The notes under the pieces are model-generated. The model saw only the letters and a program-made list of their open reading frames with translations, made no database searches and was not told where the DNA came from. A program made the position numbers and the translations under genes. DNA of 64,000 bases. Source: Tractidigestivibacter scatoligenes (GTDB lineage: Bacteria; Actinomycetota; Coriobacteriia; Coriobacteriales; Atopobiaceae). The stretch spans positions 868,001 through 932,000 of the forward strand of contig NZ_LOJF01000001.1 of NCBI RefSeq assembly GCF_001494635.1, given 5' to 3'. Shown piece after piece: positions 11,515 to 45,408 of the stretch. Within the stretch, counting starts at the first letter, position 1. Every line of letters begins with the position of its first letter.

Positions 11515-11522
11515 GGTGGCTC

Positions 11523-12782: not shown

Positions 12783-12839
12783 AGTTTCCTCCACGTGCAT
12801 CGAGGTGCGCCGACCGCGTGCGGCGCGTTGCTATTATTA

Positions 12840-12850: not shown

Positions 12851-12869
12851 CATTATGCTCTCATTTGCG

Positions 12870-28813: not shown

Positions 28814-30346
28814 GTGGAAGGCCAGAACCACAAGGACTTCTCGGCGCGCCTTGGCCAGGCCATGGACGAACGCGGCCTGCGTCAGGCAGACCTCGTTCGC
28901 ATGGCAGCAGCCGATGGCGTCAAGCTGGGAAAGTCGCAGCTCAGCCAGTACCTAAGTGGCAAGACAGAACCGAGAAAGGCAACGCTCGCATTTCTCGCTA
29001 CCGCCCTCGGCGTGAGCGCCGAGTGGCTCTCGGGCGAGACCGATAACGCCGCCGCGCCACCAGAAATGAGACAAAGGGACAGTCCCTTTGTCTCATCCAC
29101 CCCCACCAAGAAGAAGGAATCCACCATGCCTCGTCGCCAGTTCAAGAAGTCATCCAAGCTCGACAACGTCCTCTACGACATTCGCGGGCCCGTGCTGGAC
29201 GAGGCGTACCGCATGGAGGACCAGGGCATCCACGTGCTCAAGTTGAACATTGGCAACCCCGCGCCGTTTGGCTTCCGCACGCCGGACGAGGTCGTGAAGG
29301 ACATGCAGGACCAGCTCACGGAGTGCGAGGGCTACTCCAACAGCCGCGGCCTCTTCTCCGCGCGCAAGGCCATCATGCAGTACGACCAGCTCAAGGGCAT
29401 CCCCAACGTGGACGTGGAGGACATCTACACCGGCAACGGCGCCTCGGAGCTCATCCAGCTTGCGATGAACGCCTTCATGAACGAGGGCGACGAGATTCTC
29501 GTCCCCAGCCCGGACTACCCGCTGTGGACCGCCTGCGCCACGCTGGCTGGCGGCACCGCCGTGCACTACATCTGCGACGAGAAGGCCAACTGGTACCCTG
29601 ACATCGATGACATCCGCAGCAAGGTCACGCCGCGCACCAAGGGCATCGTCGTGATTAACCCCAACAACCCCACGGGCGCCCTGTACCCGCGCGAGGTGCT
29701 GGAGCAGATCGTGGACGTGGCGCGCGAGAACCAGCTGGTCATCTTTGCGGACGAGATTTACGACCGCCTGGTGATGGACGGCAAACAGCACGTCTCCATC
29801 GCGAGCCTTGCACCGGACCTGTTCTGCATCACGTTCAACGGACTTTCCAAGAGCCACATGGTGGCGGGCTACCGCATTGGCTGGATGAGCCTTTCGGGCA
29901 ACAAGCGCATCGCAAAGGACCTCATCGACGGCATCAACATGCTCTCGAACATGCGCCTGTGCTCCAACGTGCCAGCGCAGTCCATCGTGCAGACGTGCCT
30001 GGGCGGCATCCAGCGCAGCCAGGGGCTTCTCGTTCCCGGCGGGCGCATCTACGAGCAGCGCGAGTACGTCTACGAGCGGCTTTCCAACATGGACGGCGTC
30101 ACGGTGACCAAGCCCGAGGCCGCGTTTTACATCTTCCCGAGGCTTGACCCGGACAAGTTCCACATCACCGACGACGACCAGTTCGCGCTCGACCTGCTCA
30201 AGGACGAGCACGTCCTTATCACCGCGGGCAAGGGTTTCAACTGGGAGAAGCCCGGCTACTTCCGCATTGTCTACCTGCCGCGCAAGCACACGCTGCACGA
30301 GGCGATGGACAAGCTCGAGGACTTCCTGAGCTACTACCAGCAGTAG
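28814..30346 (+). CDS. XRE-type HTH fused to class I/II aminotransferase (AlaA-like)
   Basis: A 510-residue open frame. Residues 1-70 form an XRE helix-turn-helix (LGQAMDERGLRQADLVR, KSQLSQYLSGKTEPRKATL). About 85-95 are encoded by a 29-bp palindrome (MRQRDSPFVSS), and 105-510 are a PLP-dependent aminotransferase of the alanine/aspartate type, with GNGASELIQLAM and PLP Lys346 in GLSKSH. GTG 28814 follows GGGAGAGG. An internal ATG at 29126 with AAGAAGGAAT upstream would give the aminotransferase alone, so the locus may make a fusion, a separate enzyme or both. MocR-type HTH-aminotransferase fusions use a GntR HTH; this combination is different. Confidence 0.82.
   Translation: MEGQNHKDFSARLGQAMDERGLRQADLVRMAAADGVKLGKSQLSQYLSGKTEPRKATLAFLATALGVSAEWLSGETDNAAAPPEMRQRDSPFVSSTPTKKKESTMPRRQFKKSSKLDNVLYDIRGPVLDEAYRMEDQGIHVLKLNIGNPAPFGFRTPDEVVKDMQDQLTECEGYSNSRGLFSARKAIMQYDQLKGIPNVDVEDIYTGNGASELIQLAMNAFMNEGDEILVPSPDYPLWTACATLAGGTAVHYICDEKANWYPDIDDIRSKVTPRTKGIVVINPNNPTGALYPREVLEQIVDVARENQLVIFADEIYDRLVMDGKQHVSIASLAPDLFCITFNGLSKSHMVAGYRIGWMSLSGNKRIAKDLIDGINMLSNMRLCSNVPAQSIVQTCLGGIQRSQGLLVPGGRIYEQREYVYERLSNMDGVTVTKPEAAFYIFPRLDPDKFHITDDDQFALDLLKDEHVLITAGKGFNWEKPGYFRIVYLPRKHTLHEAMDKLEDFLSYYQQ
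29067..29095. repeat. 29-bp palindrome copy 2 (inside HTH-aminotransferase frame)
   Basis: TGAGACAAAGGGA, CAG centre, exact reverse complement. It is read in a frame that avoids its TGA and encodes the linker between the two domains. Confidence 0.95.
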
Positions 30347-30447
30347 GCAAGGCCAGGGGATAGGCCCCTGGGCTAGGGCATCTGGGCTGATGGGTTCGTG
30401 CAACCGAATTCCTTGTGGTATTGGCTGCGATATGTACCGGCTGCGGT

Positions 30448-30478
30448 TTGTACCCAAAATGGGTACAATATGGGTACA
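30448..30478. promoter_or_regulatory. Operator of the toxin-antitoxin operon
   Basis: TTGTACCC-N5-GGGTACAA (30448-30468), then a further GGGTACAA half-site at 30472-30479. It overlaps a TACAAT -10-like sequence about 20-30 bp before the antitoxin start, as expected for antitoxin autorepression. Confidence 0.65.
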
Positions 30479-30496
30479 ACAAGAAGGAGGTATTCT

Positions 30497-30775
30497 ATGG
30501 CAACCGCAGCAGTGACAAGGCGCGCGGAGATCAAGACGCGCACATCCGCCGAGGTGAAGAAGGGTGCGACGGAGGTATATGCGCGCTGGGGTCTTAGTCT
30601 CAACGACGCAATCAACACTTTCCTCATTAAGTCAATTGAGGTTGGGGGGCTTCCGTTCGACCTGCGGCCGGAGGCGCCTTCATACGACGCCATCGCAGCG
30701 ATAGCCTATAAACCGGAGTTGAACACCGAGGGCGTCGCCATGCTGCCAGCGGAATGGGACGACGGCGATGAGTGA
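30497..30775 (+). CDS. RelB/DinJ-family antitoxin
   Basis: A 92-residue protein with an N-terminal ribbon-helix-helix region (AEIKTRTSAEVKKGATEVYA, LSLNDAINTFL) of RelB/DinJ type and an acidic C terminus likely to wrap the toxin. ATG 30497 follows AAGAAGGAGG. The stop overlaps the toxin gene by 8 bp. RelB/DinJ antitoxins usually pair with RelE/YafQ toxins, but here the partner looks like PemK/MazF, so the pair is a hybrid. Confidence 0.88.
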   Translation: MATAAVTRRAEIKTRTSAEVKKGATEVYARWGLSLNDAINTFLIKSIEVGGLPFDLRPEAPSYDAIAAIAYKPELNTEGVAMLPAEWDDGDE

Positions 30776-31106
30776 GCATGTCCCGCAACCGTGGGAAGTG
30801 TGGCACGCCCGCTTTGACTTCTCCGAGGGTCATGGCTACAAGTACCGGCCCGTCATTGTGCTCGCGACGCGGCCAGACGGGTTGCTCGTAGCCATGGTGA
30901 CGGGTTCCAGCAACAAGCTTGCTCTTGAGCACGACTACCCCATACGAGAGTGGGAGGCCGCCGGGCTCGACAAGCCCTCCATCGCGCGCCTTGACCGCAT
31001 TGCCGAGATACCTGCCGGATACCTAGGCAACGCAGGACGCTTCGGTCGCCTTGCCGACTCTGACATCGCTGCTATCAAAACGATACTTGCCGAAATCACA
31101 CGATAG
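30768..31106 (+). CDS. PemK/MazF-like toxin
   Basis: A 112-residue protein resembling the MazF/PemK ribonuclease fold: PWEVWHARFDF, YKYRPVIVLATR, VAMVTGSSNK, ARLDRIAEIPAGYLGNAG and a C-terminal helix. These toxins cleave mRNA at short motifs and block growth until neutralised. It overlaps the antitoxin gene by 8 bp. It is the first element of a run of defence-like genes. Confidence 0.82.
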   Translation: MSEHVPQPWEVWHARFDFSEGHGYKYRPVIVLATRPDGLLVAMVTGSSNKLALEHDYPIREWEAAGLDKPSIARLDRIAEIPAGYLGNAGRFGRLADSDIAAIKTILAEITR

Positions 31107-31210: not shown

Positions 31211-32104
31211 ATGGACAAGCTCGCATACCTTGCGAAAACGCTCTCGCGCACTACTCGTAAGGACTATGAGAACTACGTCGTAAACGCTGTATGGAATCGC
31301 TTGGGGGATGACACACTAAAGCCGGTGTCGCAGCAGTGGCTTGCAAGGCCTGATGGCAAAGGCTACTTCATCGACCTGTACTTTCCGCAGGTGAACCTTG
31401 GTGTAGAGTGTGACGAGCCATTCCATCACAATCAAAAAGCTGCCGATAGGGCACGCGAGCTTGACCTGATGGACATTCTCAATCAGATCGATGCAAATCA
31501 TGGCTACAAAGCTTTACATATTGATATCTCCAAGGGCTATGACAGCGTAAATGCCCAGATAGATATGGCTGTAGAAGAGATTCGCAGTGAGGCCCAGAGG
31601 CGTAAAGACGCCGGAGACTTTACTGAGTGGTCTCCTGACGCGGGAGATGAGACAAAGCTGGATGGTCGACAGTCAATCTCCGTGGGAGATGGGCTGTCAT
31701 TTCGGACTATCTGCGATGTCTGCAATGAGGTGTTCGACTCGGGCTATCAAGGGCAGCAGCATGCATATTTCAGGCCACAAGGCCCATTCCGTAAGAGTTA
31801 TCCCTCGTATATGGCGTGGTTTCCCACAAAGATGGCGGTTGAGGGAAAGGGGAGAAAGGGTTGGCTCAACATTGTCTCCCCGGACGGATCTGTAATCTGT
31901 GAAGGCCGTGAAGGCGAGAACTACGAAGGCGATGGAGATAGTTCTGCTCGAGTGGTGTTCGTCATGGTAAAAGATCCCATCACTGGCGTGAGCGGCTATC
32001 ACTTTCTCGGAGTGTTTGAACCTCGTGGAACGAAGGAAGTCAACGGCCAACAATATAGGCTCTACCGCCGCATTGCTGAGAGCTTTCCCATTCTGAGGGG
32101 ATAA
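31211..32104 (+). CDS. PvuRts1I/AbaSI-family modification-dependent restriction endonuclease
   Basis: A 297-residue protein, the length of PvuRts1I. The N-terminal part (TRRKDYENYV-like TRKDYENYVVNAVW, then FIDLYFPQVNLGVECDEPFHH) matches the Vsr-like nuclease domain; Asp55, Glu66 and Asp68 are the likely metal ligands. From about 150, ISVGDGLSFRT, GYQGQQHAYF, AWFPTKM, NIVSPDGSVI, RVVFVMVKDP and YHFLGVFEPRG match the SRA-like base-reading domain in order. Characterised members cut DNA containing 5-hydroxymethylcytosine, some also its glucosylated form, and spare unmodified DNA, so no methylase is needed. ATG 31211 follows GGAAAAAC. A preceding short frame at 31113 is not called. Confidence 0.85.
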   Translation: MDKLAYLAKTLSRTTRKDYENYVVNAVWNRLGDDTLKPVSQQWLARPDGKGYFIDLYFPQVNLGVECDEPFHHNQKAADRARELDLMDILNQIDANHGYKALHIDISKGYDSVNAQIDMAVEEIRSEAQRRKDAGDFTEWSPDAGDETKLDGRQSISVGDGLSFRTICDVCNEVFDSGYQGQQHAYFRPQGPFRKSYPSYMAWFPTKMAVEGKGRKGWLNIVSPDGSVICEGREGENYEGDGDSSARVVFVMVKDPITGVSGYHFLGVFEPRGTKEVNGQQYRLYRRIAESFPILRG

Positions 32105-32240
32105 GTTCTGGTCACTGGCGGATGGCTGTGGCGACAATGGCTTTGTCACGCATAATGGTTCTAACCAGCCAAGTGTCGGGATGGACGAAGCGGCGTTGGC
32201 GGTGTGGTGCGGCGCAACAAACGTGGGGGAGGCCATGCTC

Positions 32241-32585
32241 ATGGGCAAGTACGACTACCAGGAGACAATCGACAGGCTGCGCGCCTTTCGCGACCAGCGA
32301 GAATGGCGCCAGTTCCACAACCCCAAGGACCTCGCCATTTCGATAAGCCTCGAGTCGGCGGAGCTGCTCGAGGCGTTCCAGTGGTCCGGCGCAGACACCT
32401 CGGCGGACGGCCGCCTGGATACGATCTCGGAGGAGCTGGCGGATGTCCTCATATACTGCCTGTTCATGGCCGACGCCTGTGGGCTTGACCCGCTCCAGAT
32501 CGTGAACGAGAAAATCGACGCCAACGCCAAGAAGTATCCCGTCGAGCTAAGCCGCGGCAACGCCAAAAAGTACACGGAGCTGTGA
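32241..32585 (+). CDS. DCTPP1-like dCTP pyrophosphatase (MazG superfamily)
   Basis: A 114-residue all-alpha nucleotide pyrophosphohydrolase. The order FRDQREWRQFHNPKDLAI, LESAELLEAFQW, EELADVLIY and KYPVELSRGNAKKYTEL corresponds closely to the dCTP pyrophosphatase DCTPP1/RS21-C6 rather than to generic MazG. ESAELLEAF and EELADV supply the acidic Mg site. DCTPP1 enzymes hydrolyse dCTP and prefer several 5-modified dCTPs. ATG 32241 is 8 bases after GGGGGAGG; ATG 32235 is possible. The TGA stop is the start of a palindrome. It lies between a cytosine-modification-dependent nuclease and a DUF2075 ATPase. Confidence 0.85.
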   Translation: MGKYDYQETIDRLRAFRDQREWRQFHNPKDLAISISLESAELLEAFQWSGADTSADGRLDTISEELADVLIYCLFMADACGLDPLQIVNEKIDANAKKYPVELSRGNAKKYTEL

Positions 32586-32611
32586 GACAAAGGGACTGTC
32601 CCTTTGTCTCA
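32583..32611. repeat. 29-bp palindrome copy 3 (overlaps dCTPase stop)
   Basis: TGAGACAAAGGGA, CTG centre, exact reverse complement. Its leading TGA ends the dCTP pyrophosphatase gene. Confidence 0.95.
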
Positions 32612-32635
32612 TGCAGCAAGGTAGGGGAGAAACCC

Positions 32636-34726
32636 ATGTCGGTCAGGCAACCCGTTGTCATAGACGTTCCGTTCCATGAGGACGACATCCAGATTGAGCA
32701 GAGCATCGATCAGGTGCAGCGCGAGGTTGATGGCCGCGAGCTCTCAAACAGCGCGCGGATGCTCCTCAAGACCTACCCCACTGTCTACATCATTCGCGGC
32801 AAGCAGCACAGGCGCGCTCGTAGCGGCTATGAGTTCGACGAGTTCGTGCTCTATGTGGGCGAGACAAACTCCATTGTGCGGCGAACCAAGGAGCACTACA
32901 CCGACGATGTCACATATCGCACCGAGCAGGGCAAGCGGGTGTGGCAGCAGCTCAATCGGCCCGGCAGCCGCATGCTGGTCATTGGGCAGGACCACTTCAA
33001 CAAGTCGCTTACCCTTGACCTCGAGAACAACTTCCTAAGCTACCTTCTCGCTTCCGGCGCAGAGCACGTGACCTTGGCAAACGGTCGTGGCAATCCGCAG
33101 GCAAACTACTACACCAAGCCTGAGCTGCCGATAATCACCTCTGCCGTGTGGCGCAAGCTCAACCACTACGAGCCGGAGCTCTTCCCGGCCGAGTCTGTCA
33201 TCCGGGACTCCGCCATCTTCAAGGCATCGCCGTTTCGCGCGCTGGGCAAAGACCAGATTGCGGCGGAAGATGCAATTCTCGGCCGACTGCGCGACCTCAT
33301 GGACGGCTGGGCCGCCGCGTCGCAGCCGCAAGACCCCAGCGCTCCCGTCGAGAACGGCGAGCTCATCGTTGTCGAAGGCATGGCAGGAACCGGCAAGACG
33401 GTTCTTCTCAGCCATCTGTTCCTGCGTATCATGAACGAGCTGGGGGTCCAAGAGGCCGGCGGCGTCTCCGCGGGGCCCCGCCGTCCCGTCAACGCCTGCC
33501 TTCTGGTGAACCACAACGAGCAGCTCACGGTCTACAACGCCATCATGAAGCGCCTTGGCCTCCAGAACAGGGACAACGTGGTGGTGGACAAGCCGACGCC
33601 TTTCATCAACAAGCATAGCGAGGCCGGGCACGGCAACGGCCTAGCGCGCCAGGACTATCCCTGCAGCCCGGTCGATATTGCCCTTGTCGACGAGGCCCAC
33701 CTCCTTCTCACCCAGGGCAACCAGGGCTACGCGGGCAGCAGGAACATGCTCGTTGACATCATGCGTCGTGCGCGTGTGGTGGTTGCCGTCTACGACCTTG
33801 AGCAGGTGCTGAGAAAGTCGCAGGAGCTTGATGCCTCGATGAAGTGTGCACTCTTTCCCGACGGGCGCTTCTCGGGTGGGAAGGTTCTTTGCGCGAGAAG
33901 GGCCGCCGACGTGTCCGGGTTCCCGTTCCACGTGGAGAACCTGCTTCTGCGACAGCAGTACCGGATTGATGCCTGCGACGAGATCGTGCGCTGGATTGAT
34001 GACTTTGCCAACGGACGGGGAGTGGGGCCGATTCCTCACGACCCACCGCGTGAGGGGCATAGGCCCTACGAGATCAAGGTCTTTGACTCGCCGTACGACC
34101 TGAAGTTGGCAATCGAGGACCATGCTTCGACCTTTGATCCGGCTACGGGAGAGATTGTGGACGATACCTCGCACGGGCTCTCGCGCGTGCTGGCAACGTA
34201 TGACTGGCCGTACTCGAGCAAGTCCAAGCCGGCATCGGGTGTGTGGGAGGTTCGCATTTATCGCGAGCAGAGCGGCTGGGTGTCTCTGGACAAGAACGGG
34301 GACGTGAGCGAGATGCGGCACGGGCGGGCATCCGTTGCGGCCGAGGAGCCCCCGCACACGGAGTACTTCCACATGCCGTGGAACTACGAGACGTCTGCCA
34401 CCGAGGAAGAGGCGGCAGACGAACGCGGCAAGGCTTGGGCTGAGCAGGGCCACACGCTGGGGGAATGCGGCTCGATTTACACTATCCAGGGGTTCGACCT
34501 CAACTACGCGGGCGTGATTATTGGGCCATCTGTTTGCTGGCGAGAAGGGCGGCTGGTGTTCGATCCGTCAAAGAGCTGCAACTCGCAGGCGATTAACGGC
34601 AGCGAGGACCCAGAGGCGAACCTCCGACATGAGCTCAACGTACTGCTCAAGCGAGGCGTTCACGGACTGTACCTCTTTGCCGTGGATGGCGCGCTCGAGC
34701 ATCACCTGCTAGAGATGCAGGCATGA
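32636..34726 (+). CDS. GIY-YIG nuclease fused to DUF2075 ATPase/helicase
   Basis: A 696-residue protein. Residues about 45-130 resemble a GIY-YIG nuclease (YPTVYIIRG, FVLYVGETNSIVRRTKEH). From about 240 comes a P-loop ATPase of the DUF2075 type related to superfamily 1 helicases and Schlafen ATPases: Walker A VEGMAGTGKTVLL near 247-258, Walker B LVDEAHLL with Asp352-Glu353, then YDLEQVL, LLRQQYRIDA, TIQGFDLNYAGVIIGP and LNVLLKRGVHGLY. ATG 32636 follows GTAGGGGAG. DUF2075 proteins are frequent in defence loci but the mechanism is unresolved. It probably shares a transcript with the dCTP pyrophosphatase. The TGA stop is again supplied by a palindrome. Confidence 0.85.
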   Translation: MSVRQPVVIDVPFHEDDIQIEQSIDQVQREVDGRELSNSARMLLKTYPTVYIIRGKQHRRARSGYEFDEFVLYVGETNSIVRRTKEHYTDDVTYRTEQGKRVWQQLNRPGSRMLVIGQDHFNKSLTLDLENNFLSYLLASGAEHVTLANGRGNPQANYYTKPELPIITSAVWRKLNHYEPELFPAESVIRDSAIFKASPFRALGKDQIAAEDAILGRLRDLMDGWAAASQPQDPSAPVENGELIVVEGMAGTGKTVLLSHLFLRIMNELGVQEAGGVSAGPRRPVNACLLVNHNEQLTVYNAIMKRLGLQNRDNVVVDKPTPFINKHSEAGHGNGLARQDYPCSPVDIALVDEAHLLLTQGNQGYAGSRNMLVDIMRRARVVVAVYDLEQVLRKSQELDASMKCALFPDGRFSGGKVLCARRAADVSGFPFHVENLLLRQQYRIDACDEIVRWIDDFANGRGVGPIPHDPPREGHRPYEIKVFDSPYDLKLAIEDHASTFDPATGEIVDDTSHGLSRVLATYDWPYSSKSKPASGVWEVRIYREQSGWVSLDKNGDVSEMRHGRASVAAEEPPHTEYFHMPWNYETSATEEEAADERGKAWAEQGHTLGECGSIYTIQGFDLNYAGVIIGPSVCWREGRLVFDPSKSCNSQAINGSEDPEANLRHELNVLLKRGVHGLYLFAVDGALEHHLLEMQA

Positions 34727-34752
34727 GACAAAGGGACAGTCCCTTTGTCTCA
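34724..34752. repeat. 29-bp palindrome copy 4 (overlaps DUF2075 stop)
   Basis: TGAGACAAAGGGA, CAG centre, exact reverse complement. Its leading TGA ends the DUF2075 gene. Confidence 0.95.
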
Positions 34753-36040: not shown

Positions 36041-36391
36041 GCGATACCTCCTGTTTGCGTGCGGTGGAGTTACCGTGCCTGGTGACGCAATTATGCTTCA
36101 ACTTTGCGTAGGTGCGATTGCATTTTGGGCCTTCTCGCCATGCCCCGGAATGGGATTCATTTGCCGGGCAACGGAATCCCATTACCGGGTAACGGAATCC
36201 CGTTGCGCGGTAACTAAATCCCATATCGGTTTGGGTGGCAGCTGTCGCGCTTTGCTCAAGGCGCCTTGAGGTCTTCAACATTGGGACAGAAAGGTTGCGC
36301 AACAAATTCAGCAACATGGGAGTCAGCATCAACCTGACCTGAAAGCAAGGTCAGGCTTCTGTACCTAACCAAGAGTCGGAGGTTGATGCTG
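36041..36391. other. Gene-free gap upstream of large surface protein
   Basis: It contains the palindromic direct repeat at 36130-36228 and, nearer the gene, AAGCAAGGTCAGGCTTCTG (about 36340-36360), which could form a small hairpin around the promoter or leader. No gene is seen. Confidence 0.5.
36130..36228. repeat. CCCGGTAA/GGAATCCC element, copy 2 (left flank of surface-protein gene)
   Basis: The first 50 or so bases, from CCTTCTCGCCATGCCCCGG, are identical to those at 39669, and the similarity continues to about 80 bp. The two copies are in direct orientation and flank the surface-protein gene. Confidence 0.88.
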
Positions 36392-39300
36392 ATGAAGGAA
36401 CGCACCGCACAACATCTTGCGAAAAGCAACAAAGTCCGAGGGGTTGGCCTTCGAGCCTCAATTATTGCCGCCAGCGCGGCCGCGATGATAGCCACATCAA
36501 CCGCCGCTCCAGCGCTTGCCGAAGAGGCGGATGGTGTGGCGGGAAGCGACACTCCCTCGACTACATCTACGAACGCCGCAGACAATAAGGCCGAGCTGGA
36601 AAATGCTCAGAAGGCGGCCGACCAAGCGCAGGCGCAGCTCGAATTCGACAAAGCAAAGCAGGCCCAGGATCAGAAGGAGGCCGTCGATAAGACCGAGACG
36701 GCGCGGAACGACTCTGCCGAGCAGGCGTCCGATGCAAGAAACGCTGTGGATGCCGCCAACAAGGCTTCTGGCGATGCCTCAAATGCGCTAAATAACGCCG
36801 AGAAGAACGAGGCAGACGCCGAGGCGAAGAGCGATGCGGCAAACGAGGCGGCCCAAGGCATAACCAACGCCGACGTCAGCAGGGCGAAGAGCGATGCCGA
36901 GCAGGCTGCGGACAACGCCGACCAAGCTGAAGCGGCCGTGAAAGACGCCGAGTCAAATGCCCAAAAAGCACAGTCTGACGCTGACGTCGCGAAGGAACGG
37001 CAGGATTCCGCTACTGCAGACGTTGAGGCAAAGCAGGACGAGAAAAACGCTGCCGACACCGATGTGACGAAGGCGCAGTCCGCCCTGGATTCTGCAAACG
37101 CTAAGCTGGACGAAGCGAAGAAGAACGCTACGGATACTGCCGCAGCTATCGACAATGCTCAGAAAGCGCTTGACGCTGCAAATGACGCGCTTGCCAAGGC
37201 GCAGGCCGACGCATCCAATGCAAGCTCGAAGTACACGAATGCCATTACCGCCGCCGGCAATGCCCAGAGTGCCGTGGACTCCGCGAAGAGCGCCCTTGAC
37301 GCGGCAACCGAGCGTCAGAAGAAGGCGGCCGATGCCGTAACCGCTGCTCAGAATGCCCTCGATGCCGCTAGGGCCAACGCTGGCGTTGACTTCGCTACCA
37401 CGGACGCCGGAAAGCAGGCCCAGGGCGCGTTTGACGCCGCGAGGGCAGAGCTTGCAGACGCGCAGGCACAGCAGGCCGCGGCGCAGAAGAACCTCTCTGA
37501 CGCGAATGCCACCCTTTCTGCAGCCGAGGAAAACCTGCAGAAGCTCCTGAAGGCAAGCGAGGATGCGGCTCAGTACGAGCAGAACACCCTTGGCTTCTTC
37601 AAGTGGATGGGGAACGAGACGGCGGCCAAGCTGCTGACCGATTCGAAGTACACCGGTACAGACATCAACGGGCATACATTCCTGTCATACACGGATTTGA
37701 TTAGCTCTGAGGATGCGACTTCTCTGAAGAACTTCGCTAGGGCTCTGAACTACATCGACGAGTGCAACAAGATTCGCACTGAGCGCGTTAAGACATCGGC
37801 ATTGAAAGTTGACCTTATCCTCATGGCCCTTGCTGAGATTAATGCCAACTATTCATACGTGGATACTGATAATCATGCCGTTAATTTGGGCGAGAAAGCG
37901 TATTACGAATACTACGACGAGGATCTAGGGGAGCGGACGAGGTATATCGCCGCGAATGAGAACTTGGCCGGATATGGCCGATACGATCCTGACAAGAACC
38001 CTTATGAGCCGTTCCAATACTGGTATGACGATGAAGAGGCAGAGGGCGGTGGCGGCCACTACTACAACATTAGAAATCGAGCAGTTGACTTCACCGGATT
38101 TGGGTGCAACACATCCGGAAACGCAAACGGAATGTATGTTGCTGTGCAAAACTTTTATGGTGGCTATGCATATGGCGCGAATGCTTCAGAACGCGTGCTT
38201 TACACCACCAGCGACCTTCGCGCCAAGCTCCAAGAGTACCTGGCCCTCTGCACCACGCCGAGCGCCGATGAGCTTGCTGCCGCCAAGCAGGCCGTAACGG
38301 ATGCCAAGGCTGCCGTCACCACGGCGACAACTGCCCTGTCCATGGCAAACGCCAACGTCACCGCCAAGAAGGCAGCCGCCACATCTGCGCAGGACGCCTA
38401 CGCTTCCGCCAAGCAGGCATACGAGTCCGATGCCGCGGCAAAGGTGTCTGCGGCTCAGCAGGCGCTCGCTTCCGCCAACAGCGAGAAGTCGGATGCCGAT
38501 GCTGCGGTGACGTCCGCGCAGGACTCCCTCTCCGCCGCACGTGATGCGCTCACGGTGAAAAACGCCGAGTTTGACCGGGCAAAGCAGACAAAGGACACCG
38601 CCGATGCGAACGTCTCCGCAAGGCAGGCGGATGTCGACGCAGCAACCAAGAAGCTCGCGTCCATTCAGCGCGGTACAGAAATCGAGGATGCTCAGAAGGC
38701 CGTGGATGCCGCGAACAGCGCGCTTTCTGTCGCAAAGTCCAAGGCAACGCAGGCGGCGGAGGTCCTGTCGGCGGCACAGGAGAAGTCCGCCGATGCGAAG
38801 GCCGCATATGAGGCGGCAACCGAAAGGCTCGCCTCTGCTCAGTCCGCCGCTTCCGCAGCCAAGCAGAAGGCGGGTGCCGCCAATGCAAAGCTCGAGCAGG
38901 CGAAGAACGCCTACACCGACCTTAAGTCTCGTGCCGACACTCGCGATGCGGCAAACAAGGCGCTCGCGGATGCCAAGGCTGCGCTGAAGCAGGCAGAGGC
39001 AGACCTTGCATCCGCCGAGGCTGCGGTTCCTGGCCTTGAGAGGCAGGCCGAGCAGTACGGCGATGTCGCTGCCATTCTCGCCAAGCTCCTGGGCGCGGAC
39101 GAGTACCTTGCGAACCCCGATGTGCTCCTCGCCGCGAAGGATGAGCTTGTCGCATATGGCGCGTCCGATGGCCTTACCCAAGCGACGAAGGATGCTCTTT
39201 CTCGCTACGAGCAGCTTCTCGATGACGCGTACAGGCTTGCCACCGAAGCCAGTGCCCTTGATCCTGTGATTCAGCTTGACCAGGAGGCCGCCAACGCGGC

Positions 39301-39571
39301 GGATGCCCAGCTTGCCTCCGCGAAGGCGGACTGCGAGCTGCAGCAGCAGATTGAGGAACAGCTCCGTCAGGCAGCTGCCGCCCGCGAGTCGAGTGCGGGA
39401 CAGGCAAATTCCGTGCGGGTTGGGCGTGCGACCTATGTGCCCGAGCACATGGCGACGCTTGGAACCCCGAGCACCGGCGATGAGCGGAACCCCTATCTGC
39501 CGCTTGGTGTTGCCGGCGTGGGCTCTCTTGCCGTGTTTGCCGGCGGAAGGCGCCGCCGTCGCGAGGACTAG
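36392..39571 (+). CDS. Large coiled-coil surface protein with central CAP-like domain
   Basis: A 1059-residue secreted protein. The signal peptide ends near residue 43 (APALA). Residues about 60-395 and 615-1000 are long Ala/Asp/Lys/Gln-rich coiled coils with heptad-like repeats (AQKALDAANDALAKAQ). Between them lies a compact domain resembling a CAP/SCP fold (LALAEINANY, NENLAGYG, WYDDEEAEGG, GHYYNIRNRAVDFTGFGC, MYVAVQNFYGG). The C terminus is TPSTGD, a weak hydrophobic helix and GRRRRRED, a likely sortase signal. The plan is like SEC10/PgrA-type surface proteins. ATG 36392 is 9 bases after GGAGG; ATG 36386 is too close. A stalk that projects the CAP-like head is plausible; its ligand is unknown. 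Confidence 0.85.
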   Translation: MKERTAQHLAKSNKVRGVGLRASIIAASAAAMIATSTAAPALAEEADGVAGSDTPSTTSTNAADNKAELENAQKAADQAQAQLEFDKAKQAQDQKEAVDKTETARNDSAEQASDARNAVDAANKASGDASNALNNAEKNEADAEAKSDAANEAAQGITNADVSRAKSDAEQAADNADQAEAAVKDAESNAQKAQSDADVAKERQDSATADVEAKQDEKNAADTDVTKAQSALDSANAKLDEAKKNATDTAAAIDNAQKALDAANDALAKAQADASNASSKYTNAITAAGNAQSAVDSAKSALDAATERQKKAADAVTAAQNALDAARANAGVDFATTDAGKQAQGAFDAARAELADAQAQQAAAQKNLSDANATLSAAEENLQKLLKASEDAAQYEQNTLGFFKWMGNETAAKLLTDSKYTGTDINGHTFLSYTDLISSEDATSLKNFARALNYIDECNKIRTERVKTSALKVDLILMALAEINANYSYVDTDNHAVNLGEKAYYEYYDEDLGERTRYIAANENLAGYGRYDPDKNPYEPFQYWYDDEEAEGGGGHYYNIRNRAVDFTGFGCNTSGNANGMYVAVQNFYGGYAYGANASERVLYTTSDLRAKLQEYLALCTTPSADELAAAKQAVTDAKAAVTTATTALSMANANVTAKKAAATSAQDAYASAKQAYESDAAAKVSAAQQALASANSEKSDADAAVTSAQDSLSAARDALTVKNAEFDRAKQTKDTADANVSARQADVDAATKKLASIQRGTEIEDAQKAVDAANSALSVAKSKATQAAEVLSAAQEKSADAKAAYEAATERLASAQSAASAAKQKAGAANAKLEQAKNAYTDLKSRADTRDAANKALADAKAALKQAEADLASAEAAVPGLERQAEQYGDVAAILAKLLGADEYLANPDVLLAAKDELVAYGASDGLTQATKDALSRYEQLLDDAYRLATEASALDPVIQLDQEAANAADAQLASAKADCELQQQIEEQLRQAAAARESSAGQANSVRVGRATYVPEHMATLGTPSTGDERNPYLPLGVAGVGSLAVFAGGRRRRRED

Positions 39572-39668: not shown

Positions 39669-39765
39669 CCTTCTCGCCATGCCCCGGAATGGGATTCATT
39701 TGCCGGGCAACGGAATCCCACTGCCCGGTAACGGAATTCCGTTGCCCGGCAAAATAATCCCGCAG
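39669..39765. repeat. CCCGGTAA/GGAATCCC element, copy 3 (right flank of surface-protein gene)
   Basis: Direct repeat of the element at 36130, lying just upstream of the thiamine operon promoter and ending in AATAATCCCGC. Confidence 0.88.
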
Positions 39766-39770
39766 GGCGC

Positions 39771-39776
39771 TATACT
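39771..39776 (+). promoter_or_regulatory. Probable -10 element of thiamine operon
   Basis: TATACT lies about 25 bp before the conserved riboswitch core. A -35 box at proper spacing is not clear. Confidence 0.4.
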
Positions 39777-39796
39777 AGACCGCGCAAAGGGGAGCT

Positions 39797-39880
39797 GGGA
39801 TATCGGCCCGGCTGAGAGGCGACACCAATGCCGCGACCCATAGAACCTGTCCGGGTAATGCCGGCGTAGGGACCAGAGCG
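39797..39880 (+). promoter_or_regulatory. TPP riboswitch (THI element)
   Basis: The THI-box core is visible: GGCTGAGAGG at about 39810, GCGACCC, then GAACCTGTCCGGGTAATGCC and GGCGTAGGGA at 39843-39871. This element binds thiamine pyrophosphate. It is followed by a terminator and a thiamine-type transport operon, so TPP should switch the operon off. Confidence 0.96.
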
Positions 39881-39889
39881 CACAGTTCG

Positions 39890-39920
39890 GGCACCTACGG
39901 AAGACGTGGGTGCCTTTTTT
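39890..39920 (+). terminator. Riboswitch-controlled terminator
   Basis: GGCACCTACG (39890-39899) pairs with CGTGGGTGCC (39905-39914), followed by TTTTTT. The 3' arm can instead pair with GGCACCC at 39921-39927, giving an alternative fold without a terminal U-run. Confidence 0.88.
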
Positions 39921-39941
39921 GGCACCCGGAAGGGAGGGTGC

Positions 39942-40280
39942 ATGGACTGCTCCGTCGCGATACAGTTCCTGCCCATGGACGCCCAGACCGACGAGGAGGT
40001 CTGCCGCGTGGTTGACGCGGTGATCGCCTACATCGACTCGACGGGCGTCGACTACTTTGTTGGCCCGTTCGAGACCGCCATCGAGGCGGACTACGACACC
40101 TGCATGGAGATTGTCAAGAACTGCCAGCTCGTGGGTGCCAAGGCGGGCTGCAAGAAGATGGCCACCTACGTGAAGATCGACTACCGCCCCAACGGCGACG
40201 TGATGACCACCGAGCACAAGGTGGGCAAGTACCACCCCACCGACACCGAGTTTGCCCAGAAGGCCGAGGAGGTCGCGTAG
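39942..40280 (+). CDS. Thiamine-binding protein (MTH1187/YkoF-like)
   Basis: A 112-residue cytosolic ferredoxin-fold protein of the thiamine-binding (PF01910-type) family. Conserved segments are VAIQFLPMDA, STGVDYFVGPFETAIEADYD and MATYVKIDYRPNGD. Relatives such as YkoF bind thiamine or its pyrimidine moiety. ATG 39942 follows GGAAGGGAGGG. It is the first gene after the TPP riboswitch and is followed by a complete ABC importer, where it may buffer or hand over the imported pyrimidine. Confidence 0.9.
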   Translation: MDCSVAIQFLPMDAQTDEEVCRVVDAVIAYIDSTGVDYFVGPFETAIEADYDTCMEIVKNCQLVGAKAGCKKMATYVKIDYRPNGDVMTTEHKVGKYHPTDTEFAQKAEEVA

Positions 40281-40283
40281 CCG

Positions 40284-41141
40284 GTGTCGCGCCAGCAAGA
40301 CACGCCGAGAAACGCCGCCGAGCCGGCGAGCAGCGCCGCCCCCGCGCCGCACGCCGCCCCCGCCCCGCGCGCCGGGGCATCCCGCATGCGCCGCGTGCTC
40401 ACGCCGCTCCTCACGGTGGTAGGCCTTCTCGTGGTGTGGGAGCTTGTCGTTGACCTGGGAATCATTCCCAACTTCCTGCTCCCCACGCCCGTCCAGGTGG
40501 TCCAGGCCCTCGTGGCCGATATCTCGCTCATCGTGGGCCACGCGGCAACCACGCTGGTAGAGACGGCCATAGGCCTTCTCATCGGCGTGGCACTCGGCTT
40601 TGCCATCGCGGTGCTCATGGACCGCTTCGAGGGCTTCTACCTGGCCCTCCAGCCGCTCGTGACCATCTCGCAGACCATCCCCACCATCGCCATCGCTCCG
40701 CTTCTGGTGCTGTGGTTTGGCTACGGCCTGGCACCCAAGGTGATTCTCATCGTGATCACCACGTTCTTCCCCATCACGGTGTCGCTGATTTCGGGCTTCC
40801 GTTCGGTTGACCCCGACGTCATCGACCTCATGCGCACCATGAACGCCTCGCGCTGGCAGATCTTTCGCTACGCCAAGCTGCCCGCCGCGGCCGACCAGTT
40901 CTTCAGCGGCCTGCGCATCAGCGCGACCTACGCCATCGTGGGCGCGGTGATTGCCGAGTGGCTCGGAGGCAACTCCGGCCTGGGCGTCTACATGACGCGC
41001 GTGCGCAAGTCCTTCTCGTACGACCGCATGTTCGCGGTCATCATTGTCATCTCTGCACTGTCGCTTGGTCTCATGAAGCTTGTTGACCTGCTGCAGCGCG
41101 TCTGTATGCCCTGGAAGAGGGCAGAAGGGAACAAACGATAA
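40284..41141 (+). CDS. thiX: ABC transporter permease for thiamine precursor
   Basis: A 285-residue membrane protein with about six helices after a disordered Ala/Pro-rich N terminus of some 35 residues. It belongs to the SsuC/TauC/ThiX permease group; the EAA-like loop is visible around MRTMNASRWQIFRYAKLPAA. GTG 40284 lies 3 bp after the previous gene's stop. Its last base overlaps the start of the binding-protein gene. The thiamine assignment rests on the riboswitch and operon partners, since this group also transports sulfonates and nitrate. Confidence 0.88.
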   Translation: MSRQQDTPRNAAEPASSAAPAPHAAPAPRAGASRMRRVLTPLLTVVGLLVVWELVVDLGIIPNFLLPTPVQVVQALVADISLIVGHAATTLVETAIGLLIGVALGFAIAVLMDRFEGFYLALQPLVTISQTIPTIAIAPLLVLWFGYGLAPKVILIVITTFFPITVSLISGFRSVDPDVIDLMRTMNASRWQIFRYAKLPAAADQFFSGLRISATYAIVGAVIAEWLGGNSGLGVYMTRVRKSFSYDRMFAVIIVISALSLGLMKLVDLLQRVCMPWKRAEGNKR

Positions 41142-42223
41142 TGGCTTCCAACTCCGTGTTTTCCGGCGGCGTCTCTCGCCGCTCGTTCCTCCGTGGCTCC
41201 GTTGCCGCCTCCGCCGCCCTGGCGCTTGCCGGCTGCGGCCAGGCGTCCCAGTCCGGATCGTCTAACGCCGCCGCGTCGAGCGACTCGTCCAGCGCGAGCA
41301 GCTCCAGCTCCAGCGACCTCGCCAAGATCTCCTTCGTGCTTGACTACACCCCCAACACCAACCACACGGGCATCTACGTGGCCCAGTCCAAGGGCTACTT
41401 CGCCGACGAGGGCCTGGACGTCGAGATTGTCCAGCCGCCCGAGGACGGTGCGGACGCCCTCATCGGCGCGGGCGGCGCCCAGATGGGCGTCTCGTACCAG
41501 GACGTTATGGCCAACAGCTTCTCGTCCGACCAGCCCATGCCCTACACTGCCGTTGCCGCCATCATCCAGCACAACACCTCCGGCATCATGAGCCGCCAGG
41601 CCGACGGCATCACGCGCCCCAAGCTCATGGAGAACCACACCTACGCCACGTGGGACCAGCCCGTCGAGCAGGCCACCATCAAGGACGTGGTCGAGGCCGA
41701 CGGCGGCGACTACTCCAAGATCAGCCTGGTGCCCTACAACGTGGACGACGAGGTCTCGGGCCTCAGGGCCAACATGTTCGACACCGTGTGGGTCTACGAG
41801 GGCTGGGCTGTCCAGAACGCCAAGGTCCAGAATTACGACGTGAACTACTTCTCGTTCATCTCGATCGACGACGTCTTTGACTACTACACGCCGGTCATCG
41901 CCGCTAACGACGACTTTGCCAAGGAGAACCCCGACCAGGTCAAGGCCTTCCTGCGTGCCGCCAAGAGGGGCTACGAGTTCTGCGTCGAGAATCCCAGCGA
42001 CGCCGCCGACATCCTCTGCGACGCCGTGCCCGAGCTTGACTCGGACCTCGTCCACGCAAGCCAGGACTACCTCAAGGACCAGTACGTTGCCGACGCCTCT
42101 GCCTGGGGCGTCATCGACGCCAACCGCTGGTCCAAGTTCTACCAGTGGCTGAACGACCAGAACTTGGTCGAGAACAAGCTCGACGTGAACAAGGGCTACG
42201 ACCTCTCGTACCTGGAGGCGTAG
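41141..42223 (+). CDS. thiY: Thiamine-precursor binding lipoprotein (NMT1/THI5-like)
   Basis: A 360-residue lipoprotein that should capture hydroxymethylpyrimidine-type precursors outside the cell. The N terminus combines a twin-arginine motif (SRRSFLRG) with a lipobox (LALAGCG), so it is probably exported by Tat and lipidated at Cys28. A Ser/Ala-rich linker leads to the periplasmic-binding fold: FVLDYTPNTNHTGIYVA, GYFADEGLDVEIVQPP and NSFSSDQPMPYTAVAA are typical of NMT1/THI5 proteins. It overlaps the permease gene by one base. Confidence 0.9.
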   Translation: MASNSVFSGGVSRRSFLRGSVAASAALALAGCGQASQSGSSNAAASSDSSSASSSSSSDLAKISFVLDYTPNTNHTGIYVAQSKGYFADEGLDVEIVQPPEDGADALIGAGGAQMGVSYQDVMANSFSSDQPMPYTAVAAIIQHNTSGIMSRQADGITRPKLMENHTYATWDQPVEQATIKDVVEADGGDYSKISLVPYNVDDEVSGLRANMFDTVWVYEGWAVQNAKVQNYDVNYFSFISIDDVFDYYTPVIAANDDFAKENPDQVKAFLRAAKRGYEFCVENPSDAADILCDAVPELDSDLVHASQDYLKDQYVADASAWGVIDANRWSKFYQWLNDQNLVENKLDVNKGYDLSYLEA

Positions 42224-42225
42224 CG

Positions 42226-43032
42226 TTGGGCGCAGGCGTTACAGCTGCCGAGAAGAACGCGGCCTCGGGCACCGGCCACGCGCCAGCGCTCGAGGCGCGA
42301 TCGCTCACGCTCTCGTGGGATGGCCAGACCACGGTCGTCGACCGGATCTCGCTTGCCGTGGCTGCGGGCGAGGTCGTGTGCCTGGTGGGGCGCTCTGGCT
42401 GTGGCAAGACCACCATCCTGCACGCGCTCTCCGGCCTCACGCGGCCGCTCTCCGGCCAGGTGCTGCTCCACGGCGAGGACATTACTGGCACGCCCGGCCA
42501 CGTGAGCTACATGCTGCAGAAGGACCTGCTGCTGCCCAGCCGTCGCATCATCGACAACGTGTGCCTGCCCATGCTCCTGGCGGGCGTCCCGCGCGCCGAG
42601 GCCCGCGCCAAGGCCGAGCCGCTCTTCGAGCGCTTTGGCCTTGCGGGCACGGAGGAGAAGTGGCCGGCCGAGCTCTCCGGCGGAATGCGCCAGCGCGCCG
42701 CGTTCATGCGCACCTACCTCATGGGGGCAGACGTCACGCTGCTGGACGAGCCCTTCTCGGCGCTTGATGCCATCACGCGCGTCGAGGTGCGTCGCTGGTT
42801 CTGCGATATGGCCCGCGAGCTGGGCCTTTCCGCGCTGGTGATCACGCACGACGTGGACGAGGCGGTCTCTATGGCAAGCCGCGTATACGTGCTGGCCGGA
42901 CGCCCCTCCGAAGGCGAGCCAAGCCACATTGCCGGCGAGGTGCGCGTTGATCACGGTACCGGAAAGGGCGACTTTGCCCTGACGCCGGAGTTTCTCGCCG
43001 CAAAGCGAGAGGTGCTCGCGCTCCTGGGATAG
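42226..43032 (+). CDS. thiZ: ABC transporter ATP-binding protein for thiamine precursor
   Basis: A 268-residue ATPase that powers the ThiXYZ importer. Walker A is GRSGCGKTT, the signature LSGGMRQRAAF, Walker B LLDEPFSALD, and the switch His lies in VITHDVDEA. TTG 42226 is preceded by GGAGG at 7 bases, with only 2 bp between the previous stop and this start; the longer frame from 42145 is inside the upstream gene. It closes the operon. Confidence 0.9.
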   Translation: MGAGVTAAEKNAASGTGHAPALEARSLTLSWDGQTTVVDRISLAVAAGEVVCLVGRSGCGKTTILHALSGLTRPLSGQVLLHGEDITGTPGHVSYMLQKDLLLPSRRIIDNVCLPMLLAGVPRAEARAKAEPLFERFGLAGTEEKWPAELSGGMRQRAAFMRTYLMGADVTLLDEPFSALDAITRVEVRRWFCDMARELGLSALVITHDVDEAVSMASRVYVLAGRPSEGEPSHIAGEVRVDHGTGKGDFALTPEFLAAKREVLALLG

Positions 43033-43069
43033 AAAAAGCGGCGCGCAGCCGATCGAGGCCGCGCGCCGC
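43032..43069 (-). terminator. Terminator for the Ser/Thr/Asn-rich gene
   Basis: GCGGCGCGC (43038-43046) pairs with GCGCGCCGC (43061-43069). On the minus strand it is followed by TTTTTC. Confidence 0.85.
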
Positions 43070-43116
43070 GTACGCGATGTGCCGCAGGCTCCCGTTGCGG
43101 GGCTTGTGGCCGCTTC

Positions 43117-44184
43117 TTATTTGTTGCCGGCGCTGCTTGTGGTGGCGCCGGAGCCGTTCGAGCTGCCCGTTCCAGATGTGGTGGACGTGGAGCTGTTGTT
43201 CTTGGTGGCGTCGTTGCTACTCGAGCTGTTCGACGAGTCGCCGTTGGTGCCTGAGCCAGACCCCGTCGAGTTGGTCGTGGAGCCTGTGCCCGAGTTGCTG
43301 GTGCCGGAGTTGTTGCTGGTAGTCGAGCTGGAGGTGCTGCTCGAGCTGCCGTTGCCGGTGCTCGAGGACGACGAGCCGGAGTTGGTTGCGGTCGAGTCGG
43401 TGGTGCCGCTTGTCGTGTTGGAGTTCGTGTCTGTGGTCTGGGCGGACTCGGACTCCGTGGTCTTCTCGGGCTGGGCCTTTTCCTCGGGCTTCTCTGCCTC
43501 GCTCTGCTCCTGGGTGGTCTGGGTCTGCTCGGTGCTTACCGGCTCCTGCGTGCGGCCGGGGGTGGTGCCAATGCCCTTGCCCTGGGTGAGCGTGTTGACG
43601 AGAAGGGCCGAGATGAGAACGGCTGCCACGCCAGCAATCACGGACGCCACAACGAGGCGCTTTCTTGTGTCGCGACGCTGGCTCTCGTGCACGGCGCGGC
43701 GCAGGCTGGCAGGCGCGATGCGCGTTCCGGAGGGTGCGAACTTGACCTCGGTGTCGTCGGCGGAGGCGGCCGCCGCGCTCTGGGTTGCGGCCGCGGCTGG
43801 CGCGGCGGCTACGGTCTTGTCTGCGTCAACCGGGTGGGGCATGAGCTTTGTCTGCCCTGCGGCAGAGGCGCCTGCGGGCTTCTCGGCTTCTGGCTCGCCG
43901 CTGTCGTCGGGGCCAACGGCGCCCCTGATCGCCTCGGCAGACTTCGAGAAGAGGTTGTTGAGCACCGAGGACGACACCGTTGCCGCGGCAGCGCCCACGA
44001 TGGCTCCAATGAGCGAGCCTGCCACGCCTATCTGCGACGAGAGCGAGAACGACACGCCTGCGGCAAGCGCGCTGGCGAGTATCTGCGCAAACGAGAGGTC
44101 GCCAAACACGCCTCCGGCGCGTTCGTCCTGCTCGTTCCTCTCGTCATCCTTATCGTTACCATACGTCTTGGATTCCTGCGCCAA
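43117..44184 (-). CDS. Membrane protein with long Ser/Thr/Asn/Gly-rich tail
   Basis: A 355-residue protein, not assigned to a family. An N-terminal hydrophobic, Ala/Gly-rich stretch (ILASALAAGVSFSLSSQ, GVAGSLIGAIVGAAAATV) is followed by a linker, a second hydrophobic helix (LVVASVIAGVAAVLISALLV), an acidic Glu/Gln/Thr stretch and about 120 residues almost only of Ser, Thr, Asn and Gly. The tail probably crosses or sits in the wall and could be glycosylated. TTG 44184 follows AAGGAGGGA; the frame to 44280 lacks such a site. The minus strand is preferred over a similarly long plus frame because of the ribosome binding site and the terminator. Confidence 0.75.
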   Translation of the reverse strand: MAQESKTYGNDKDDERNEQDERAGGVFGDLSFAQILASALAAGVSFSLSSQIGVAGSLIGAIVGAAAATVSSSVLNNLFSKSAEAIRGAVGPDDSGEPEAEKPAGASAAGQTKLMPHPVDADKTVAAAPAAAATQSAAAASADDTEVKFAPSGTRIAPASLRRAVHESQRRDTRKRLVVASVIAGVAAVLISALLVNTLTQGKGIGTTPGRTQEPVSTEQTQTTQEQSEAEKPEEKAQPEKTTESESAQTTDTNSNTTSGTTDSTATNSGSSSSSTGNGSSSSTSSSTTSNNSGTSNSGTGSTTNSTGSGSGTNGDSSNSSSSNDATKNNSSTSTTSGTGSSNGSGATTSSAGNK

Positions 44185-44459
44185 GACCCATCCCTCCTTC
44201 GGTCGCGTCTCCCGCGCGGCCACTCCACTTTTGGGATACCCGAGTATAGGCTGCGGCCAACGCGTCGCACCCATCCTCACGAATAAGAGACAAGCCTTCT
44301 TGAAAGCACGGCCTTTCTCGTGCAGGGTGGCCTGGCAGGGTTTGTAAGGCCTTTGGGAATCAGCGTTCTTGCAGCCCTTCTAGGGTGTGAAGGTTCTCAC
44401 ATCGGGTATGATTGTCGGAGTACCACATCGTTCAGCTTCCAACAGATGGAGGTCACACT

Positions 44460-45332
44460 ATGCTCGTCAATGCAACCGCAATGCTTCAGAGCGCCGAGAA
44501 GGGCCACTATGGTATTGGTGCCTTCAACACCAACAACCTCGAGTGGGCTTCTTCCATTCTGGACGCTGGCGAGGAGCTGCAGTCGCCGCTCATCATCCAG
44601 TGCACCAGCGGTGCCGCCAAGTGGCAGACTTCCTTCAAGCTCGTCGCCGACATGGTGAAGGACCTCGTCGAGGCCAAGAACATCACCGTGCCCGTTGCCC
44701 TTCACCTCGATCACGGCTCCTACGAGGCCGCTCTTGAGTGCATCGACGCCGGCTTCACCTCCGTCATGTACGACGGCTCGCACGAGAAGGACTTCGAGAC
44801 CAACCTTGCCCACACTGCCGAGATCGTGAAGCTTGCCCACAGCAAGGGCATCTCCGTCGAGGCCGAGGTCGGCGGCATTGGCGGCACCGAGGACGGCGTT
44901 ACCGCCAAGGGCGAGCTGGCCGACCCCGAGCAGTGCAAGGCCATCGCCGACCTGGGCGTTGACTTCCTTGCCTGTGGCATTGGCAACATTCACGGCATCT
45001 ATCCTGCCAACTGGGAGGGCCTGTCCTTCGACCGCCTGCAGGAGATCAAGGATAAGACGGGCGATCTGCCGCTCGTCCTCCACGGCGGCACCGGCATCCC
45101 CGTTGACCAGGTGAAGAAGGCCATCTCGCTGGGCATCTCCAAGATCAACGTCAACACCGACCTGCAGCTGGTCTTTGCGGCCGCTACCCGCAAGTACATC
45201 GAGGAGGGCCTCGACAAGGAGGGCAAGGGCTACGATCCCCGCAAGCTCCTCAAGCCTGGTCGCGAGGCCATCAAGGCTCGTACCGAGGAGCTCATCAAGG
45301 AGTTTGGCTCCGACGGCAAGGGCTGGAACTAG
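44460..45332 (+). CDS. fba: Class II fructose-bisphosphate aldolase
   Basis: Zinc-dependent glycolytic enzyme cleaving fructose 1,6-bisphosphate. The 290-residue product shows the zinc-binding LHLDHGS motif, EAEVGGIGG with the second metal-binding Glu, CGIGNIHGIYP, the phosphate-binding LVLHGGTGIP and KINVNTDLQ. ATG 44460 follows GATGGAGG; the frame extends to 44412 without a site. A terminator follows. The tagatose-bisphosphate aldolase GatY/KbaY is the only close alternative. Confidence 0.94.
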   Translation: MLVNATAMLQSAEKGHYGIGAFNTNNLEWASSILDAGEELQSPLIIQCTSGAAKWQTSFKLVADMVKDLVEAKNITVPVALHLDHGSYEAALECIDAGFTSVMYDGSHEKDFETNLAHTAEIVKLAHSKGISVEAEVGGIGGTEDGVTAKGELADPEQCKAIADLGVDFLACGIGNIHGIYPANWEGLSFDRLQEIKDKTGDLPLVLHGGTGIPVDQVKKAISLGISKINVNTDLQLVFAAATRKYIEEGLDKEGKGYDPRKLLKPGREAIKARTEELIKEFGSDGKGWN

Positions 45333-45375
45333 CGTCTACGTGTTGCGAGAGTTTCTCGCCGCATAGCGTTGATGA

Positions 45376-45408
45376 GGCCCGTCCGGCATGTCCGGACGGG
45401 CCTTTTTG
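45376..45408 (+). terminator. Terminator after fba
   Basis: Perfect 11-bp stem (45376-45386 with 45392-45402) followed by TTTTTG. Confidence 0.95.

Follow-up and report, generated by a model that had tools for sequence, protein, structure and literature searches.

The window, the 64,000-nucleotide stretch of the Tractidigestivibacter scatoligenes contig NZ_LOJF01000001.1 analysed here, carries at positions 31211–34726 three consecutive and intact genes on the same strand, and raises the question of whether these belong to one system. Gene 1 (31211–32104, + strand, 297 amino acids (aa)) encodes a predicted modification-dependent nuclease of the PvuRts1I/AbaSI type. Gene 2 (32241–32585, + strand, 114 aa) encodes a predicted MazG-like or DCTPP1-like nucleoside triphosphate (NTP) pyrophosphohydrolase, and gene 3 (32636–34726, + strand, 696 aa) a predicted GIY-YIG nuclease fused to a superfamily 1 (SF1) helicase of Schlafen group 3. 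The initial annotation had named these families correctly (gene 3 as a GIY-YIG/DUF2075 protein), as borne out by Pfam, by PDB matches and by an alignment of 48 homologues, and had joined all three genes into a two-layer module against phages with hydroxymethylcytosine. The coupling of a nuclease to a dCTP-type pyrophosphohydrolase proves to be real, but the adjacency censuses place gene 3, not gene 1, as the partner. Judged from sequence, genes 2 and 3 form a unit, and gene 1, a type IV-like restriction gene, stands apart from them: it was apparently acquired independently at the same variable spot and is a passenger outside the conserved pair.

Adjacency is most readily seen within the class. 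Each of the three proteins was searched in the same set of 248 Coriobacteriia genomes, which gave relatives of gene 1 in 5, of gene 2 in 42 and of gene 3 in 45. A gene 3 homologue adjoins the gene 2 relative in 35 of the 42 genomes that carry the latter (counted by hand from position tables). One of the seven exceptions, G171, contains what appears to be a fused and decayed remnant of genes 2 and 3. Scanning GTDB genomes with a 22-sequence alignment yields 80 named loci from Actinomycetota, Bacillota, Bacteroidota, Pseudomonadota, Saccharibacteria, Parcubacteria and one Woesearchaeota metagenome-assembled genome (MAG). Of 97 nuclease-fused helicases, 82 have a hydrolase gene no more than 1 kb away, whereas only 1 of the 16 helicase-only paralogues does (Fisher p 1e-9, with shared ancestry uncorrected). 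The linkage holds for both types of nuclease domain, with 58/72 of the GIY-YIG and 24/25 of the PD-(D/E)XK helicases having the hydrolase at this distance. In the single helicase-only paralogue with a hydrolase nearby the helicase is truncated by a contig end.

The arrangement of the two genes is not fixed. Over all loci the hydrolase gene is upstream of the helicase in 43 and follows it in 32, with 8 more having it on the opposite strand; the spacing falls between −50 and +30 bp in 62 of the 75 same-strand pairs. As gene order and strand vary, the linkage has been preserved through rearrangement. The nuclease domain likewise switches between GIY-YIG and PD-(D/E)XK while the hydrolase partner is retained, and the distances of hydrolase and helicase covary (Mantel r 0.29, 0/1000 permutations, again with no correction for shared ancestry). 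A physical fusion of hydrolase and helicase, sought as proof of contact, was found at none of the loci, and a PD-(D/E)XK-type pair from Pseudomonas has no DNA match in E. coli. The ratio of non-synonymous to synonymous substitutions (dN/dS) of genes 2 and 3 is 0.08–0.19 across the genus and a neighbouring genus, and among the congeners 0.08–0.10 for the hydrolase and 0.14–0.18 for the helicase; both genes are thus under purifying selection. Other arrangements of the two families also occur. A Corynebacterium MAG (L140, 6270–10150) has two family helicases back to back, with PD-(D/E)XK-like and GIY-YIG N-termini and no MazG neighbour, and in another genus lone MazG-like genes are found, with no helicase, near HIRAN-like and patatin-like genes (named by eye) in L082 (923–4142) and L221 (7381–10597).

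Gene 3 consists of two recognizable parts. The helicase domain (33362–34687, + strand) matches PF09848, the former DUF2075 and now SLFN-g3_helicase, with 230 bits against a gathering score of 24, and contains the Walker A sequence GMAGTGKT, which conforms to GxAGTGK. The AlphaFold2 model is confident (mean predicted local distance difference test score 88), and in structure matches its helicase part resembles human SLFN11, UvrD and T4 Dda, the alignment with SLFN11 giving Z 18.3 and 3.5 Å across 272 residues. The entries listed by VIA-align for this model are mostly helicases, so the N-terminus was barely probed in this way. The GIY-YIG model of Pfam scores 17.5 bits on gene 3, under the cut-off of 22.6, and passes that cut-off in a plasmid homologue (27.4 bits). 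Within the core of the domain, Y51 to E130 in the numbering of the 696-aa protein (32786–33025, + strand), the residues Y51, Y73, G75, R83, H87 and E130 are invariant across the 48 homologues. Searching the PDB with the single sequence of this domain gave nothing useful; a 48-sequence profile of it retrieves endonuclease II (2wsh, E 0.005). The N-terminus is predicted to be a GIY-YIG nuclease domain. The ATG at 32636 is the more likely start, rather than the GTG at 32582 of the first-stage call, because the 18 initial residues of the longer frame are mostly encoded by a dispersed palindromic repeat.

Gene 2 matches the MazG-like family PF12643 above the cut-off (75 bits) and shares 43% identity with mouse DCTPP1/RS21-C6 across 113 aa. 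The nearest solved structures are the pyrophosphatase 4qgp and DCTPP1. It retains the catalytic residues E38, E41, E65 and D68 as well as the aromatic residues W22, W48 and Y72, so that E/E/E/D and W/W/Y are common to gene 2 and DCTPP1. Among 50 partner proteins the ExxE...ExxD metal site is kept almost throughout, with E38, E65 and D68 in 50/50 and E41 in 49/50. The pocket that binds dCTP in DCTPP1 includes W47, W73, Y102 and H38; in the same 50 proteins the two tryptophans and the tyrosine are retained and the H38 position is variable. The partner family differs from DCTPP1 in this histidine and in its genetic linkage to a nuclease-helicase.

Gene 1 has the full-length architecture of PvuRts1I and AbaSI, an N-terminal Vsr-like nuclease (PF21598, PvuRts1I-like_N, 111 bits, residues 5–124) followed by a C-terminal SRA domain (PF18491, 76 bits, residues 153–294), both far above the cut-off. 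The best PDB matches are AbaSI (4par, 4.7e-27) and PvuRts1I (3e-17), and the PADLOC model mREase_II gives 218 bits.

This quality of match, the DCTPP1 type of gene 2, the succession of three genes on one strand and the preference of human DCTPP1 for dCTP and 5-modified dCTPs (PMC4491611) are what favours the module proposed by the initial annotation, in which the hydrolase would deplete hydroxymethyl-dCTP, the gene 1 nuclease would cleave DNA that already carries hydroxymethylcytosine, and the ATPase would act at a later step. The comparative evidence makes this proposal highly improbable. Gene 1 stands beside the pair in the window genome only, that is in one of the five gene 1 carriers and one of the 35 pair carriers of the class, and the overlap of gene 1 and pair is at the level of chance (Fisher p 0.54, 248 genomes). 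Conserved adjacency of the three families had been set beforehand as the refuting test, and it fails outside the class as well; none of 53 named pair loci from elsewhere has a gene 1 relative in the available flanks of up to 8 kb. AbaSI-type genes on four plasmids are solitary, with no pair alongside. Relatives at the same chromosomal spot hold either gene 1 or genes 2 and 3, not both: three congeners have the pair without gene 1, and one has gene 1 without the pair. Finally, gene 1 is flanked by gaps of about 105 and 137 bp, against the −50 to +30 bp of most same-strand pairs. The trio as a conserved unit was rejected on the co-occurrence census, the same-spot comparison and the pair loci, and can be regarded as mostly refuted already. 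The gene 1 relative in G157 (L048, 9251–10431), the only one in the genus, is interrupted near residue 128, where the nuclease and SRA domains join, and occupies two frames.

The surroundings of the pair are those of defence genes. Neighbours were compared with PADLOC models at E 1e-20 for 23 diverse named loci, of which 22 have the pair and one (L096) has no hydrolase. The 137 nearest neighbours at these loci match 79 models, among them DRT2, DRT3, DRT6, Ietas, type IV restriction endonuclease, dGTPase and type II methyltransferase, whereas 132 neighbours of the helicase-only paralogues match 15, all of them either candidate families or similar to kinases, UvrD or exonucleases; the surroundings of these paralogues are ordinary chromosomal genes. 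On plasmids, members of the gene 3 family are found near a type I restriction–modification (RM) gene pair, a type III-A CRISPR locus and restriction genes. Defence neighbours, patchy occurrence (35 of 248 class genomes) and mobile carriage together make up a defence-type genomic setting. What can be established by sequence is that a nuclease–Schlafen-type SF1 helicase fusion beside a DCTPP1-like hydrolase is kept across phyla amid defence genes, and since genes 2 and 3 travel together, usually in such company, they have the appearance of an uncatalogued two-gene defence unit.

The closest known systems are Nhi of Staphylococcus (PADLOC PDLC02372) and AbiO (PDLC02350), which have a related helicase; one gene 3 homologue (L095) matches the Nhi model at 2.9e-14 and that of AbiO at 3.6e-13. 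Nhi is a single-gene nuclease-helicase that nicks and unwinds DNA and is thought to respond to the single-stranded DNA-binding protein of phages (reviewed in PMC12904381). The pair is distinguished from both by a separate N-terminal GIY-YIG or PD-(D/E)XK domain and by its conserved pyrophosphohydrolase neighbour. The PF09848 family and the helicase fold are shared with Schlafen group III (human SLFN11 and SLFN14); the gene 3 family differs in having a hydrolase partner and an N-terminal half that its sequence identifies as GIY-YIG or PD-(D/E)XK. Gabija, Hachiman and Ppl are helicase- or NTPase-coupled nucleases, with a likeness of logic and no sequence membership. The pair is not among the models of PADLOC 2.0, in which gene 2 has no match and gene 3 only weak ones. 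No published description was found in the open-access literature, subscription papers being outside the search, so that an earlier mention is possible. We class the pair as a variant of nuclease-helicase defence rather than as a new category.

Genes 2 and 3 are therefore best described as a two-gene, horizontally mobile and probably anti-phage module related to Nhi and AbiO. By analogy with Nhi, the helicase would load on an invader's DNA ends or replication intermediates, with the nuclease cutting at those sites, while the hydrolase would convert dCTP, or a C5-modified dCTP, to the monophosphate. What this last activity contributes could take several forms. Tentatively placed first is a lowering of the deoxynucleoside triphosphate (dNTP) pool, which would leave phage synthesis short of precursors or free a nuclease that NTPs inhibit; the Ppl nuclease is kept inhibited by NTPs until phage has depleted them (PMC12904381). 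More doubtful is a role in which modified dNTPs are kept from the host DNA, which is thereby spared by the nuclease, and the destruction of a phage's modified dNTP pool seems unlikely. The relatedness of the helicase to Nhi and AbiO, with the nucleotide gating of Ppl, ranks depletion or gating slightly above sanitation. If the pair is a defence system, nucleotide-pool chemistry and DNA cutting are joined in one operon, and the question is raised of whether the hydrolase protects the host from its own nuclease, starves the phage or releases the nuclease.

Several observations weigh against this reading. The Nhi and AbiO models match gene 3 of the window only weakly (1.5e-3 and 6e-4, respectively) and over short stretches. 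As His38 of DCTPP1 is not conserved in the partner, its base specificity cannot be assumed, and the hydrolase could be no more than a co-selected house-cleaning enzyme of general function. Fifteen of the 97 nuclease-fused helicases are without a hydrolase, which is therefore not always required. Within the Coriobacteriia, PADLOC also separates the pair loci from random regions less cleanly (136 versus 64 families at E 1e-10); the difference is suggestive only, many of the matches being to generic helicase models that confound it.

Two other explanations of the pair have to be weighed against anti-phage depletion or gating. In one, the nuclease-helicase attacks DNA with modified bases and the hydrolase acts as an antidote, blocking salvaged modified dCTP from the host DNA in place of an RM methylase. 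The preferred substrates of DCTPP1 are dCTP and 5-methyl-dCTP, and in human cells its knock-down raises both 5-methyl-dCTP and DNA methylation (PMC4491611). SauUSI, whose substrate is DNA with 5-methylcytosine (5mC) or 5-hydroxymethylcytosine (PMC7913695), repeatedly lies next to a Nudix gene and sometimes in one operon with the pair. These two preferences suggest that the hydrolase may prevent the incorporation of modified dCTP into host DNA, and the near absence of the hydrolase beside helicase-only paralogues (1/16) fits such a role. C5-methyltransferases should be rare in hosts whose nuclease depends on 5mC, and in SauUSI genomes, the positive control, they are (2/11 with such an enzyme versus 134/237 of the others, p 0.025). 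Pair genomes show no depletion (27/35 versus 109/213), so a general dependence on 5mC is improbable for the pair nuclease, and that candidate specificity is disfavoured. The explanation then requires another base, for example hydroxymethylcytosine, on which a census of host methylation is silent. No SRA-like reader domain is recognized by Pfam in gene 3, and sanitation as an antidote appears rather unlikely.

The other explanation is a pair for house-keeping or repair, in which intermediates of replication or recombination would be resolved by the nuclease-helicase and oxidized pyrimidine dNTPs removed by the hydrolase, with no part in phage defence. MazG enzymes do clean 5-OH-dCTP (PMC10014863), and UvrD, RecD2 and Dna2 are among the structural matches of the helicase. 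This is hard to reconcile with the patchy distribution of the pair in the class, its carriage on plasmids, its location in a variable spot, the decayed remnant in G171 and the defence-rich neighbours; it is the helicase-only paralogues, not the pair, that lie amid ordinary chromosomal genes. A repair function is thus distinctly unlikely, and a mobile anti-phage module remains the preferred description of genes 2 and 3.

The SauUSI loci form a parallel to the pair. Of the 53 named pair loci, 9 have a SauUSI-like gene (PLD-SF2-DUF3427) within 8 kb, whereas none of the 15 helicase-only loci has one. The gene run is helicase, MazG, SauUSI, Nudix in Butyrivibrio (L130), and Nudix, SauUSI, MazG, helicase in Solobacterium (L153) and on a Lactiplantibacillus plasmid (L190, NZ_CP028230.1, SauUSI-Nudix region 8258–13653); a Limosilactobacillus plasmid has the order Nudix, SauUSI, MazG. 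In 10 of 11 Coriobacteriia loci SauUSI adjoins a Nudix gene resembling MutT and CTP pyrophosphohydrolases, and the two occur together on plasmid records of five genera: Lactiplantibacillus, Latilactobacillus, Staphylococcus (an S. aureus plasmid record included), Hymenobacter and Limosilactobacillus. Further loci are L210, L212–L220, L253–L255 and L257. A Fusobacterium SauUSI record has no Nudix neighbour. We know of no description of the SauUSI-Nudix pairing.

SauUSI resembles gene 3 in being a nuclease-helicase coupled to a gene for a (d)NTP pyrophosphohydrolase. It differs in its PLD nuclease, its superfamily 2 (SF2) helicase and its SRA reader, and its partner is Nudix, not of the MazG fold; SauUSI genomes avoid C5-methyltransferases and pair genomes do not. 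Gene 3 itself falls outside SauUSI, as it matches none of the PLD nuclease, SF2 ATPase and DUF3427/SRA models of Pfam, and DUF3427 is absent from this genome. That two unrelated nuclease-helicases are each found with a pyrophosphohydrolase of unrelated fold suggests a shared logic. It is conceivable, though on balance doubtful, that this reflects a general design in which nuclease-helicases sensing modification or replication (GIY-YIG/PD-(D/E)XK-Schlafen and SauUSI) are each tied to a dNTP pyrophosphohydrolase (MazG-like or Nudix) that serves as pool-cleaning immunity or as a nuclease-releasing switch and replaces the classical RM methylase. If the parallel is true, the best-studied type IV enzyme of Staphylococcus gains an apparently unstudied partner. 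At L161 (4059–6592) the gene for a divergent family helicase, whose N-terminus resembles PD-(D/E)XK by eye, has a 4-bp overlap with a Nudix gene and adjoins a MazG and helicase pair; here it is possible that Nudix has replaced MazG.

The three genes lie in a variable spot which, from the alignment to four congeners, extends from an aminotransferase-like gene to a block starting at 39734. The left flank, conserved in the genus, is a frame for an aminotransferase of the pyridoxal phosphate type (28814–30346, + strand, named by sequence inspection); the right flank (39734–45400) is syntenic in G217, G235, G177 and G157. In the window strain the spot holds gene 1, genes 2 and 3, and a toxin–antitoxin pair together, the latter consisting of a RelB-like antitoxin (30398–30775, + strand) and a PemK/MazF-like toxin (30768–31106, + strand).

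The palindromic repeat, GAGACAAAGGGAC(A/T)GTCCCTTTGTCTC, occurs in 51 exact copies in the 2.47 Mb genome, compared with 0 for the reversed control. One copy lies between genes 2 and 3 (32584–32610, + strand) and a second at the gene 3 stop codon (34725–34751, + strand), so that gene 3 is bracketed by the two, and these copies are translated into spurious protein ends. The window has a further copy at 29068–29094 and near copies at 17397 and 45670. Within the variable stretch, positions 36383–39571 encode a 1062-aa alanine-rich coiled-coil protein of surface type whose hydrophobic C-terminus precedes the residues RRRRRED.

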